Part shown: positions 36,337 to 58,100 of the stretch, in pieces
Numbering within the stretch: position 1 is the stretch's first letter
Layout: every line of letters begins with the position of its first letter
Source of the DNA: Paeniglutamicibacter quisquiliarum
GTDB taxonomy: Bacteria; Actinomycetota; Actinomycetes; Actinomycetales; Micrococcaceae
Assembly (NCBI RefSeq): GCF_019084045.1
Contig: NZ_JAHRED010000006.1
Location: 186,001-250,000, forward strand
Direction of reading: 5' to 3'
Length of the DNA stretch: 64,000 nt
Position numbers and translations under genes: made by a program
The notes under the pieces: model-generated
Database searches by the model: none
What the model saw: only the letters and a program-made list of their open reading frames with translations
Told to the model about the DNA's origin: nothing

Positions 36337-37680
36337 ATGAGCATGAAGATATCGGTGATAGGTACCGGATACCTGGGCGCGACACACGCGGCCTGCATGG
36401 CTGAACTCGGCTTCGAAGTCATCGGCGTTGACGTCGACCCGGCAAAGATCCAGGCCCTGTCCGAAGGCAGGTTGCCCTTCCACGAACCTGGCCTGGGGGA
36501 GTTGTTGCGCAAGCACGTGGCCTCGGGCCGGCTGCGCTTCACCACCGACTATGAGCAGGTGGCCTCCTGGGCAGACATCCACTTCGTGGGCGTCGGCACC
36601 CCGCAGCGTGCCGACGGGCACGGGGCAGACATGCGCTACGTCGACGCGGCGGTGGCCGAGCTTGCCGCCCGCATTCGCGGCACTGCACTGATCGTGGGCA
36701 AGTCCACGGTTCCGGTGGGCACCGCCCGCAGGCTGCGCGGGCTGATTGCGGCCAACGCCCACCCCGATGCGCAGATCTCCCTGGCCTGGAACCCCGAGTT
36801 CCTGCGCGAGGGCTTCGCCGTGGCGGACACCATGTCCCCGGACCGCCTGGTGCTGGGTGTCGAGGACGGGACCTCCGAGGCCATCCTGCGCGAGGTCTAC
36901 GCCAGTGCCCTGGAGGCGGACACCCCGCTGATCGTGACGGACTTTGAGACCGCGGAACTGGTCAAGGTCGCGGCCAACGCCTTCCTGGCCACCAAGATCT
37001 CCTTTATCAACTCCTTTGCCGAGGTCACCGAGACCATCGGCGGGGACATCACGGTGCTGGCCGACGCACTGGGCCACGACGCGCGCATCGGGCGCAAGTT
37101 CCTCAATGCAGGCGTGGGCTTCGGCGGCGGTTGCCTGCCCAAGGACATCCGGGCCTTGCAGGCGAGGACCAGTGAACTGGGCCTGACGCACACCATGGGC
37201 TTCCTGGCCGAAGTGGACGAGATCAACCTGCGCCGGCGCGAACGCGTGGTCCGCCTGGCGAACGTGATGCTCAAGGACGACCTGGTCGGGGCTCGCATTG
37301 CGGTCCTCGGGGTCACCTTCAAGCCCGACTCCGACGACGTGCGGGATTCCCCGGCGCTGGACATCGCCGTGCGGCTGTACAACGCCGGTGCCGACGTACT
37401 CGTCTACGACCCCAAGGGCAACAAGAACGCGGCCGAGCGTTTTCCGCGGCTGCAGTACGCAGGTGACCTGCCCGAGGCCGTGCAGGATGCCGACTTGGTG
37501 CTGCTGCTGACCGAATGGGCGGAATTCAAGGCCCTGGTTCCAGCTGACCTCGCGCACCTGGTGGCTGCCCGGCGCCTCATCGATGGAAGAAACGTCCTGA
37601 ACCGGAAGCAGTGGGAAGCGTCCGGCTGGGAGATCGTGGGCATGGGCCAGCACCATGCTCCGCTCGACGGAGAGCTCTAG
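36337..37680 (+). CDS. ugd: UDP-glucose 6-dehydrogenase
   Basis: Oxidises UDP-glucose to UDP-glucuronate for cell-surface polysaccharide. 447 residues. The Rossmann motif MKISVIGTGYLGATHAA is at the N terminus, and the catalytic Cys266 lies in GFGGGCLPKD. The C-terminal UDP-binding domain has LGVTFKPDSDDVRDSPA. TCGAAAGGGTG precedes the ATG. Family members can also be GDP-mannose dehydrogenases, but the LAWNPEFLREG pattern fits UDP-glucose. Confidence 0.93.
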   Translation: MSMKISVIGTGYLGATHAACMAELGFEVIGVDVDPAKIQALSEGRLPFHEPGLGELLRKHVASGRLRFTTDYEQVASWADIHFVGVGTPQRADGHGADMRYVDAAVAELAARIRGTALIVGKSTVPVGTARRLRGLIAANAHPDAQISLAWNPEFLREGFAVADTMSPDRLVLGVEDGTSEAILREVYASALEADTPLIVTDFETAELVKVAANAFLATKISFINSFAEVTETIGGDITVLADALGHDARIGRKFLNAGVGFGGGCLPKDIRALQARTSELGLTHTMGFLAEVDEINLRRRERVVRLANVMLKDDLVGARIAVLGVTFKPDSDDVRDSPALDIAVRLYNAGADVLVYDPKGNKNAAERFPRLQYAGDLPEAVQDADLVLLLTEWAEFKALVPADLAHLVAARRLIDGRNVLNRKQWEASGWEIVGMGQHHAPLDGEL

Positions 37681-37840
37681 GCCCTGGCGACGGCCGGCCA
37701 CGCGGCGGTGGACATGCGCCGCTCCGTTCCGGCACCGGCCATCGTCTCGGTGCCTGGGCGGTCCGTCGCGCCGCTTCGCGCCATGACAATCGAATTCAAT
37801 TTTGGTGGTCAATTAGGCAGGCGAACATCCGGAATTTGGG

Positions 37841-37846
37841 TAGCAT
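37841..37846 (+). promoter_or_regulatory. -10 of candidate small RNA
   Basis: TAGCAT preceded by GGG, with predicted start about 37853, exactly where the first hairpin of the candidate RNA begins. The -35 is poor. The 160 nt between the ugd stop and this box hold nothing else that I can identify. Confidence 0.45.
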
Positions 37847-37852
37847 GACTTG

Positions 37853-37958
37853 AGCGTGGATTACCCCAATTGTCCACGCAGTATTTGCGTGTACCCCAAG
37901 TATCCGCAAATGCGAGGGACCCACCAAGCACTCGCAATGTTGGTGGGTCCCTTTCGTT
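37853..37958 (+). ncRNA. Candidate small RNA, 6C-like: two C-rich loop hairpins plus terminator
   Basis: Hairpin 1 is GCGTGGA (37854-37860) with TCCACGC (37873-37879), and its loop contains TACCCCAA. Hairpin 2 is ATTTGCG (37883-37889) with CGCAAAT (37905-37911), and its loop also contains TACCCCAA. Then AGGGACCCACCAA pairs with TTGGTGGGTCCCT, followed by TTCGTT, as a terminator. Two tandem hairpins showing identical C-rich loops followed by an intrinsic terminator is the architecture of the actinobacterial 6C RNA, although the loops here have four rather than six Cs. No protein gene is visible in 37681-38018. Confidence 0.6.
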
Positions 37959-38018
37959 AATCCGGTCCTGCTTCCGGGCCGCATTCCGGGTCCGGCCCGC
38001 CGACCGGCGGCGACGTCC

Positions 38019-39554
38019 CTAAAGCCCCAGCTCGCGGCCAGCGCGGGGGAGTTCCTGCAGCAGGTCGACGGCGCTGACCATGCCTTCGTGTGCCGCCAAC
38101 GCGCCCGCATGCGCATGGACCAGGGCACCGGCCGCGGCCAGGTCCACCAGGCGATGGCTCTGCGCCACGACGTCGGCCGCGGTGGGCGTGGCGGGGAAAT
38201 TCGCTGCCGCCAGCAGCGTGCCGAGGATGCCCGTGAGCACGTCGCCGCTGCCGGCGGTGGCAAGATCAGGGGTGGAGGCGTGGACGATCAGGGTGTAGCC
38301 GTCGGGAGCGGTGCAAATTGTCGAGGGCCCCTTGAGAAGGACCACGCAGTCGTAGGCAACGGCAGCCCAGCGGGCCCAGCGGATCGGGTCGTTGGAGATA
38401 TCGCGGGAGCTGACGCGTACGCCGGCCTTGGCCAGCAGGGCGTGCAGTTCCCCGGCATGCGGGGTGAGAATCCGCAACTGGTGGTGTCCGCCCGGTTCCA
38501 GCATGGAAAGCGCGCCTGCATCGATGACACAGGGAGTGCTCGCGGCCAGGATCATGGCCAAGTGTCGGCGGGTGTCCTCGGTGTCCTCAAGCCCCGGGCC
38601 GATGGCCCAGGCTCCGATGCGGGTCGCACCCTCGCGCTCATTGCGGCGGTTGCGTGCCAACAGGGCCGTCAGCTCCGGGGTCGCCAGCGGAACGGACTCC
38701 GGCACCTGGGTGGTCAAGGCCGTAGCAACGGCCTCCGGGACCAGAGTGCGCAGCAGGCCGAGCCCGCTGGAAACCGCGGCCCTGGCGGTGAGCACCGCAG
38801 CGCCGGGGTACTTGGCGGAGCCCGCCATCAGCCCCAGCACCCCTCGCTGGTACTTGTGCCTGCCGGCCGCGCTCCAGTCGGTATTTCGGTCCAGCAGAAG
38901 TTCGAGGTCGTCTCCCTGCACCATCCAGGCCTCGGGTTCGGGCAAGGTTGCGGAGAGCCCCAGGTCGGTGACGAGAATGTTCCCGGACACCAGGTGGCCC
39001 GATCCCACCACAAGCCCAGTCTTCAGCGCACCGAAGCTGACGGTGCGGTCGGCCGGGATGACGTTGTCCGCCGCGGCGCCGGTGTCGGGGTTCACCCCGC
39101 TGGGAAGGTCGCACGCCAGTACGGGGATTTCGCGGGGCACCTCGGGAAGCTTCGCCCCGGGACGGCCCCCGGTGCCATAGCCGGCATCGATCAGCAGATC
39201 GCAGTTAACCAGGAGGTCGTCCAGGCCCGCCAAGGTTGCCGTGCGCCCGCCCGCACGTGACAGTGACTTCAATCCGGCCTGGTGGGCGTCGGTTCCCAGC
39301 AACACCGCGGTGGCCTGCACCCCGCGCTTGGCCAAGGTGGCGAGGGCAAAGAGCCCGTCCCCGCCGTTGTTTCCCGGACCGATCAGGGCCACGGCACGGG
39401 AGCCGTACAGCCGTCCCGTATTTTCCTTGAGCAATAGCACTGCCTGGTGTGCCAGTGCGTCTGCGGCCCGGTGCATCAAGGTCAGGTCGTTGGCATCGCG
39501 CAGCAGCTGGGCTTCGGCATCTCGAACGTGGGAACCTGCGTAGACGGGGATCAT
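38019..39554 (-). CDS. nnr: Bifunctional NAD(P)H-hydrate epimerase / ADP-dependent dehydratase
   Basis: Repairs hydrated NAD(P)H. The N-terminal YjeF_N epimerase domain (about 1-215) has GPGNNGGDG and CDLPSGVNPDTG. The C-terminal carbohydrate-kinase-like dehydratase domain (about 225-511) has GAWAIGPGLED, TPHAGELHALL, LLKGPST and the ATP motif TAGSGDVLTG. 511 residues, the usual fused form. It is the second gene after acpS on the minus strand (64-nt gap). Confidence 0.94.
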   Translation of the reverse strand: MIPVYAGSHVRDAEAQLLRDANDLTLMHRAADALAHQAVLLLKENTGRLYGSRAVALIGPGNNGGDGLFALATLAKRGVQATAVLLGTDAHQAGLKSLSRAGGRTATLAGLDDLLVNCDLLIDAGYGTGGRPGAKLPEVPREIPVLACDLPSGVNPDTGAAADNVIPADRTVSFGALKTGLVVGSGHLVSGNILVTDLGLSATLPEPEAWMVQGDDLELLLDRNTDWSAAGRHKYQRGVLGLMAGSAKYPGAAVLTARAAVSSGLGLLRTLVPEAVATALTTQVPESVPLATPELTALLARNRRNEREGATRIGAWAIGPGLEDTEDTRRHLAMILAASTPCVIDAGALSMLEPGGHHQLRILTPHAGELHALLAKAGVRVSSRDISNDPIRWARWAAVAYDCVVLLKGPSTICTAPDGYTLIVHASTPDLATAGSGDVLTGILGTLLAAANFPATPTAADVVAQSHRLVDLAAAGALVHAHAGALAAHEGMVSAVDLLQELPRAGRELGL

Positions 39555-57049: not shown

Positions 57050-57102
57050 GTATCCATCTCTCCAGACTGTTGTGCCCCCAAAGTATCCCCAGTTATTTCA
57101 GT

Positions 57103-57145: not shown

Positions 57146-57219
57146 TTGGGGTGCTTTCAAGTCCGCTTTTTGGGGATATTCGGGCTAGTATCTTCGTTGG
57201 GGAAATGGTTTTTTTGGGG
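57146..57219 (+). repeat. Four TTGGGG repeats upstream of the sigma factor gene
   Basis: TTGGGG occurs at 57146, 57170, 57197 and 57214 on the + strand, and its complement CCCCAA at 57076-57081 across the divergent promoter. TAGTAT (57186-57191) is a possible -10 for the sigma gene, placing two copies in its leader. They may be regulator sites or RNA pairing sites. Confidence 0.5.
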
Positions 57220-57287
57220 AAAACAGACGTGGCCACTAGCAATAGCTCTTGGCTTGATCATCACTCAAATTGACAAGGACGATCCGG

Positions 57288-58100
57288 GTGGAGCGACAGG
57301 CACGCAACCAGTTGGTTATAGAGAACCTTCCCTTGGTCGGATATCTTGCGGCAGAATTATGTGCCAAGGCGACCCACCTTTCCCGTGAAGACCTCGCTTC
57401 GGTGGGTGCCATAGCACTCATTACTGCCGCGGATGCCTTTGACGATTCGCTGGGCGTCCCCTTCGGAGCCTACGCGCGCCGGCGCATCCTCGGGGCATTC
57501 GCGGACGACATGCGATCCAACGACTGGGCCACCCGGGGTGCGCGGAAGAAGATCACCGAAACCCGTACGGTCCAGGAATCCCTGACCGCAGCATTGGGGC
57601 GAACCCCCACCGTTTCCGAGCTCTCCGACGCCCTCGGCATGGACCAGGCGTCAACCCTTGCGATCTTGAGCGATTCTGCCCGCACGGTCGTATCGATCGA
57701 CGACACCATGAACGACTACCTCGTCTCCGGCACCGAGACCCCTGAAGAGGCGTTGCTCGAGACCGAGCACACCAAGGTGATCCGGGATGCCGTTGCCGCG
57801 TTGCCGGAGAACCTGCGTGTCATCATTGAGCGCATCTACTTCCAGGGCTCGACAGTCAAGGAACTTGCTGCCGAAATGGGTGTCACCCATTCGGCGATCT
57901 CCCAGCGCCGCACCTCCGCCATGAAGCTGCTTCACGAGGGACTGCAAACGCGCTATGTGCCGGAGCAGCCACCCGCACCGGAAACCGCCATGACCCGGGC
58001 CGCGACCCGGCGACGCGAGCTTTACCTGAAGGAATTTGGCCAGCGGGTGTCCGGCGGGATCGTGCGCATCGCCGGCGGCGCGGTGTCGCCAACGGCCTAG
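57288..58100 (+). CDS. fliA: FliA/WhiG-family sigma factor
   Basis: Alternative sigma-28 type factor for flagellar genes. GTG 57288 with AAGGA 8 nt upstream gives 270 residues. Region 2 includes FGAYARRRILGAFADDMRSN (about 62-81) followed by DW, the FliA hallmark. Region 3 covers about 90-150, and region 4 has STVKELAAEMGVTHSAISQR (about 187-206). The C-terminal ~45 residues are an unusual basic tail. TTG 57270 is an alternative start. It lies between its three likely target promoters. The symbol follows function; whiG is the sporulation relative. Confidence 0.88.
   Translation: MERQARNQLVIENLPLVGYLAAELCAKATHLSREDLASVGAIALITAADAFDDSLGVPFGAYARRRILGAFADDMRSNDWATRGARKKITETRTVQESLTAALGRTPTVSELSDALGMDQASTLAILSDSARTVVSIDDTMNDYLVSGTETPEEALLETEHTKVIRDAVAALPENLRVIIERIYFQGSTVKELAAEMGVTHSAISQRRTSAMKLLHEGLQTRYVPEQPPAPETAMTRAATRRRELYLKEFGQRVSGGIVRIAGGAVSPTA

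Follow-up and report, generated by a model that had tools for sequence, protein, structure and literature searches.

To our knowledge, the RNAs with C-rich loops known in Actinobacteria are 6C and B11, for which the proposed mechanism is base-pairing of a simple C run with a simple G run. According to the accessible part of one study, 6C is built of two stem-loops, each typically with six cytosines, is known from many Actinomycetales genera and measures about 100 nt in C. glutamicum (PMC4046766). For Mycobacterium abscessus, the accessible part of a second report describes that B11 represses a reporter carrying the eccB4 5' UTR with its six Gs in a row, and that either C-rich loop suffices for this effect, which is lost only when both are mutated (PMC10470900). 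Actinobacteria have no known Hfq, as far as the available section of a further paper states (PMC6789036). The portions of the open literature that were accessible contain no report of such RNAs in the genus studied here, nor of C-loop RNAs with an adhesin target.

The window analysed here, a stretch of 64,000 nucleotides from Paeniglutamicibacter quisquiliarum (genome G000), contains a candidate RNA of comparable design, with the following features:

36337..37680, + strand: ugd, UDP-glucose dehydrogenase family (Pfam), upstream neighbour
37836..37847, + strand: conserved block TTGGGTAGCATG with a putative -10 TAGCAT (37841-37846), predicted start near 37853
37853..37958, + strand: small RNA gene, presumably transcribed, with a predicted transcript of about 100 nt, called from the fold z-score and five orthologues
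37854..37879, + strand: hairpin 1, GCGTGGAT[TACCCCAATT]GTCCACGC, with the loop TACCCCAATT at 37862-37871
37881..37913, + strand: hairpin 2, GTATTTGCG[TGTACCCCAAGTATC]CGCAAATGC, with the loop TGTACCCCAAGTATC at 37890-37904
37916..37958, + strand: terminator, GGGACCCACCAA[12 nt]TTGGTGGGTCCC, 12 bp, with the loop GCACTCGCAATG and the tail TTTCGTT
38019..39554, - strand: NAD(P)H-hydrate dehydratase/epimerase (nnrD/YjeF-type; Pfam), convergent neighbour

An initial annotation made from the letters alone had described two tandem hairpins with a shared loop and a terminator, and this architecture is confirmed by the sequence and by its fold, which at -54.9 kcal/mol lies far below that of shuffled sequences (-27.2, sd 3.5; z -8.0) and is equalled by 0 of 200 shuffles. 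The hairpins it had described as perfect 7-bp stems exist, but are slightly longer, at 8 and 9 bp, and in the minimum-energy fold the loop of hairpin 2 is partly closed by GUAC/GUAU. The terminator it had called strong does form a 12-bp hairpin, but its T-run is short here (TTTCGTT), whereas three of four relatives carry TTTTTC. Similarly, the -10 TAGCAT that it had read lies inside a 12-nt block identical in all five orthologues, which may be part of the promoter, but no -35 is recognisable upstream of the RNA and a sigma-70 scan of positions 37600-38100 returned no promoter. TGCGA ahead of the terminator and TCGCA in the terminator loop (window 37911-37937) are also kept in all five orthologues, and a possible alternative pairing between them would compete with the terminator. 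A protein-coding reading was rejected, as a 16-codon ATG frame over the terminator is, by eye, not kept as such in relatives.

The RNA is narrowly distributed. Among 58 other genomes compared by BLAST, four contain it, and a model built from these four sequences and the one studied here (R1) gave five strong matches, including the own genome, among 295 genomes of the family, all of them in one genus, where the RNA lies downstream of ugd in 5 of 15 genomes; carriers with names are Arthrobacter sp. C2, Arthrobacter sp. AQ5-05 and Paeniglutamicibacter psychrophenolicus. Nine weaker R1 matches in other genera (L021-L029) were rejected, twin CCCCAA loops being present in none. A pattern scan of contigs returned 11 stretches, three of which are known orthologues (G003, G010, G004), and the other eight, from unrelated bacteria or unclassified bins, were taken as chance.

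Invariant among the five orthologues are ACCCCAA in both loops, TTGGGTAGCATG upstream, TTACCCCAATT and, in hairpin 2, ACCCCAAGT, and the flanks of the two loops, which differ from each other, are likewise kept in all five (AAUU and AAGU). The claim that the loops are under selection fits this comparison, in which the stems vary with some compensation. The alignment of the region downstream of ugd, which had been proposed as a check, thus bears out the invariant loops, but the compensatory changes expected in the stems are thin and some pairs are broken. Only three of 35 pairs change on both sides, one in the stem of hairpin 1 and two in the terminator hairpin, a count that 10 of 500 shuffles reach and that is low given how similar four of the five sequences are to one another. 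In hairpin 1, a pair that forms in this genome is U-C in all four other orthologues; in hairpin 2, two pairs are disrupted, each of them in two of the sequences. As a whole, 94.8% of cells pair in the orthologue alignment (reached in 10 of 500 shuffles), compared with 34-52% for slid structures. Between this genome and G009, identity is 99-100% for the flagellar sigma protein and rplA, 87% for nnrD and 92% for ugd, and this drop at window positions 36337-39554 suggests an exchange of the ugd-nnrD region.

Whether the RNA is a divergent relative of 6C or a separate family had been left as alternatives, with a 6C covariance search suggested to decide. The 6C model (RF01066) found nothing at its gathering cut-off in the window, nothing in 37681-38018 even at E up to 10, and nothing at E 0.001 in the whole of this genome; membership was rejected on this result, and the tests favour a separate RNA that would be 6C-like in action. 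In the family, 6C matches occur in 10 of 149 genomes (five above the cut-off; 3 of 32 genera). Neighbours were inspected at six of the ten loci: L007 and L012, both of genus g11, follow ribosomal protein L1, L011 (g6) adjoins a catechol dioxygenase gene (Pfam) and L015 a similar frame, and L013 and L014 gave no usable neighbours after the frame filter. The genome also contains at least three further multi-C-loop RNAs, which with the RNA bring its C-loop set to four or more:

G000:C32:159925-160070, + strand: multi-C-loop RNA with three C-loop hairpins in the rplA-rplJ gap, outside the window
G000:C30:18880-19000, - strand: RNA with C-rich loops on three hairpins, ahead of a frame that by eye resembles a nitroreductase
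G000:C31:8140-8270, + strand: RNA with C-rich loops on three hairpins, following the IMP dehydrogenase gene

Twin loops on the rplA side, within 900 nt of that gene, are found in 9 of 15 genomes of the genus. The counterpart in genus g11 at the rplA-rplJ place scores 49.6 bits as 6C, so that the place where that genus has 6C is taken here by another C-loop RNA, which likewise favours a separate identity for the RNA downstream of ugd. Four rplA-side copies of the genus studied here (L210, L216, L219, L220) gave no 6C match at E 0.5.

Judged by its letters, the best target candidate of the RNA is the start region of a large adhesin, described by two features:

G000:C30:138264-146720, - strand: giant sortase-type surface protein encoded by an open frame of 2,819 codons, outside the window
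L240:2311-2536, - strand (G000:C30): leader preceding the giant surface protein, about 200 nt long, structured and rich in TGGGG/TTGGGG

The protein has SpaA_4 and DUF11-type domains, and LADTG in its translation reads as a sorting signal. Directly 5' of its probable GUG start stands 5'-CUUGGGGUAAUUGGGGUA-3' (CTTGGGGTAATTGGGGTA before GTG), of which the first 9 letters are antisense to loop 2 and the last 10 to loop 1, the right order for antiparallel pairing. Paired sites of this kind (at most one mismatch each, starts 0-40 nt apart) were found only in the adhesin leader and in the RNA's own complement in the 2.39 of 4.44 Mb of the genome that were searched. The adhesin start ranks first of 851 predicted gene starts in 1.64 Mb (-36.5, the next being -31.4; z -5.3), a rank that must not be taken as an independent test, since the leader was first noticed through its TTGGGG cluster. 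The correct loop order gives -36.5 to -38.7 and the swapped order -32.8 to -34.1, the correct one being better in all four genomes compared, and six loop pairs taken from three other C-loop RNAs reach only -27.3 to -31.3 on the adhesin sites. Of 2,000 trials with random flanks around CCCCAA, 61 were as good here, as were 14, 16 and 18 of 2,000 in G003, G007 and G010; the specificity of the flanks for the adhesin sites is moderate. With the letters of this genome each loop-site duplex is predicted at about -15 kcal/mol; opening costs 0.1 kcal/mol for loop 1 and 1.5-4.1 kcal/mol for loop 2 in the RNA, and 11.2 kcal/mol for both sites in the adhesin mRNA (5.2 in G003, 5.7 in G007).

AATTGGGGTA is kept in all nine aligned adhesin leaders and CTTGGGGTA in seven of them, including all four readable carriers of the RNA. 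Two non-self exact copies of AATTGGGGTA exist in the 2.39 Mb; one is the adhesin site and the second starts at nucleotide 16 of an ATG frame at C23:282246. The RNA and the adhesin also co-occur: all five carriers, and one of the ten non-carriers, have a strong match to the adhesin N-terminus (E below 1e-60, a limit chosen after seeing the gap; Fisher 0.002, uncorrected for kinship), and the contrast becomes 5 of 5 against 5 of 10 once weak matches are included (Fisher 0.08). G009 and G014, the nearest genomes by flagellar sigma protein (99% and 95%), have neither the RNA nor the adhesin.

The reading we prefer, to which we would give an even chance, is that of a trans-acting, 6C/B11-like RNA with the adhesin mRNA as its main target. 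The RNA would be transcribed, probably from its own promoter, and ended by its terminator, and its two rigid hairpins would present the C-rich loops for pairing with UUGGGG sites at a translation start, thereby blocking the ribosome. The most likely main target would be the mRNA of the giant sortase-type surface protein; there, loop 2 (UACCCCAAG) would pair with the first site and loop 1 (UACCCCAAUU) with the second. If so, the RNA may control the surface attachment of the cell.

The adhesin leader appears to be an RNA element in its own right. It is conserved in nine of the ten genomes of the genus with an adhesin match, the tenth (G004) having too little upstream sequence, and in the nine-row alignment the G-motifs are invariant while the surroundings diverge. 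Its consensus fold has 53 pairs, 13 of them with two-sided changes, and presents CTTGGGG at the tip of one hairpin; an Rfam search with eight of the nine loci gave no family match up to E 1. The G-motifs are also kept in five genomes without the RNA (G001, G002, G006, G008, G011), which suggests that they serve a further purpose, either in cis or together with other C-loop RNAs. From these observations a matched two-address system can be sketched, which we regard as possible rather than probable. In it, the flank codes of the loops (AAUU, AAG) would each address one of two adjacent UUGGGG sites of the adhesin mRNA, and the leader would be a conserved structured RNA offering a G-rich loop on the hairpin GTTCGAA[CTTGGGG]TTTGAAC. 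The pair would belong to a wider network of several C-loop RNAs acting on adhesin, flagellar and pilus G-tract leaders, and in bacteria that lack Hfq its specificity would come from the flank letters and the order of the loops.

A different account, which we consider rather unlikely, sees the RNA as a general 6C-like regulator that, together with the other C-loop RNAs of the genome, binds many starts with G-tracts (cpaB, flagellar sigma, a regulator), the adhesin being nothing special. The existence of those other RNAs speaks for it, as does the likeness to B11, for which either loop is sufficient in the accessible part of the report (PMC10470900). Further loci of note are:

57146..57219, + strand: four TTGGGG (57146, 57170, 57197, 57214) upstream of a flagellar-type sigma factor gene (57270-58100)
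G000:C31:5111: leader from a scan of leaders for TTGGGG
L068:3066-3200 (- strand), L064, L061, L062, L067 and G000:C32:260864-261434 (- strand): loci of the WQN family

All 11 genomes of the genus that have the flagellar sigma gene carry TTGGGG in its leader, close to where the mRNA probably begins (TTGGGGA in 10), and cpaB of the Flp pilus ranks eighth among the 851 gene starts; the flagellar-type sigma gene itself ranks 77th as a target of the RNA loops and is a secondary candidate only. By eye, the divergent flgN leader (57050-57100, - strand) carries TTTGGGGG and CTGGGGA. At cpaB/rcpC (G000:C23:345089, - strand), CTTGGGGGG stands right before the ATG and CTTGGGGG recurs at codons 5-8. Against a general regulator, TTGGGG shows no clear enrichment near starts, where it stands at 5 of 850 predicted ones (a ratio of 1.4 to background, with 0 to 2.1 for permuted motifs), or in leaders (54, with 32-48 for four permuted G-motifs and 72 for CCCCAA), and it was rejected as a generally enriched ribosome-site motif. 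Clusters, defined as three or more CCCCAA/TTGGGG in 150 nt, number four in 1.64 Mb (two C-loop RNAs, the flagellar sigma leader and the adhesin leader), which is inside the range of permuted motifs (0-44), so that only the exact paired sites carry weight; for the same reason our confidence in the adhesin as main target is slightly lower. Over 2.39 Mb there are seven clusters, the three further ones being one at C23:456 kb, at the start of a large open frame taken by eye for a regulator, and two at C12 (C12:511589, C12:636793). Finally, the loop flanks suit the adhesin sites better than those of the other C-loop RNAs do, which also speaks against a general regulator.

The WQN family, small membrane proteins of about 45 aa with a WQN motif and no Pfam match, adjoins ugd in G001, G005, G009, G010 and G014, and in related genomes its leaders carry CTTGGGG, for which reasons it was at first considered a likely main target. 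It was dropped because the two copies of this genome have only CTTGGAGG and CTTGGGAG upstream, and because no match to it was found in G003, G004 and G007.

It is improbable that there is no small RNA at all and that the element is the terminator of the convergent ugd and nnrD genes or the 3' end of ugd, with hairpins that are decorative or are DNA sites for a protein reading TTGGGG. The position between two convergent genes and the negative promoter scan would fit such an element, and TTGGG recurs in the conserved block preceding the RNA and ahead of the -10 of the flagellar sigma gene. In G010, however, about 770 bp and a small antisense gene separate the RNA from ugd, and nnrD is about 9 kb away, yet block and structure are kept; in this placement, apart from both genes, it looks like its own unit, which speaks against a mere 3' end of ugd. 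The spacing of the two motifs varies (30 to 32 nt), yet both still sit at hairpin tips, and the stems of relatives contain G-U pairs, which allow pairing only in the RNA of the + strand. In the window, TACCCCAA occurs on either strand only as the two RNA loops. Across 2.39 Mb of the own genome, 48 hairpins with CCCCAA in the loop yield four tandem pairs at three loci, whereas 14 permuted orders of CCCCAA yield 1,232 hairpins and two tandem pairs in the same sequence; one of these two (ACCCCA) is the same RNA seen through an overlapping motif, leaving a chance background of one pair.

Very improbable, lastly, is an RNA that uses its repeated CCCCAA loops to hold or titrate some RNA-binding protein, in the manner of CsrB-type RNAs and CsrA: an identical loop on two to three hairpins in several RNAs is indeed the usual look of a sponge RNA, but complementary sites are present in conserved leaders, and the differing flanks kept in all five orthologues are something that a single protein site would not need.

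Taken together, the locus is very probably a real, narrowly distributed small-RNA gene, 6C-like but by the tests applied not a member of 6C, with an ordered match to the mRNA of a surface protein. RNA and adhesin leader would form one concrete, testable RNA-target pair. If the preferred reading of a trans-acting RNA on the adhesin mRNA is true, the ordered fit of two loops to two adjacent sites would show how C-loop RNAs gain specificity, and a set of such RNAs would be linked to structures on the surface of environmental bacteria, namely the adhesin and perhaps also flagella and Flp pili.

Among known systems, sponges of the CsrB/RsmZ type resemble the RNA in repeating one loop motif on several hairpins, but their motif is GGA and not C-rich, and here complementary mRNA sites exist. 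The rplA-rplJ RNA of the same genus shares CCCCAAG loops on tandem hairpins and differs in having three hairpins, mostly five Cs, other stems and another place. Compared with 6C/B11, the RNA has four cytosines per loop in all five orthologues, where 6C has six or more, it has fixed and differing flanks (UACCCCAAUU, UACCCCAAGU), it is without a 6C-model match, and it is confined to 5 of 15 genomes of one genus (5 of 295 in the family), where 6C spans many genera. What it has in common with 6C/B11 is the actinobacterial host, a size (here predicted) of some 100 nt, C-rich loops on two hairpins, a terminator (12 bp here) and the proposed pairing with G-tracts at mRNA starts, and by analogy it probably works as they do.
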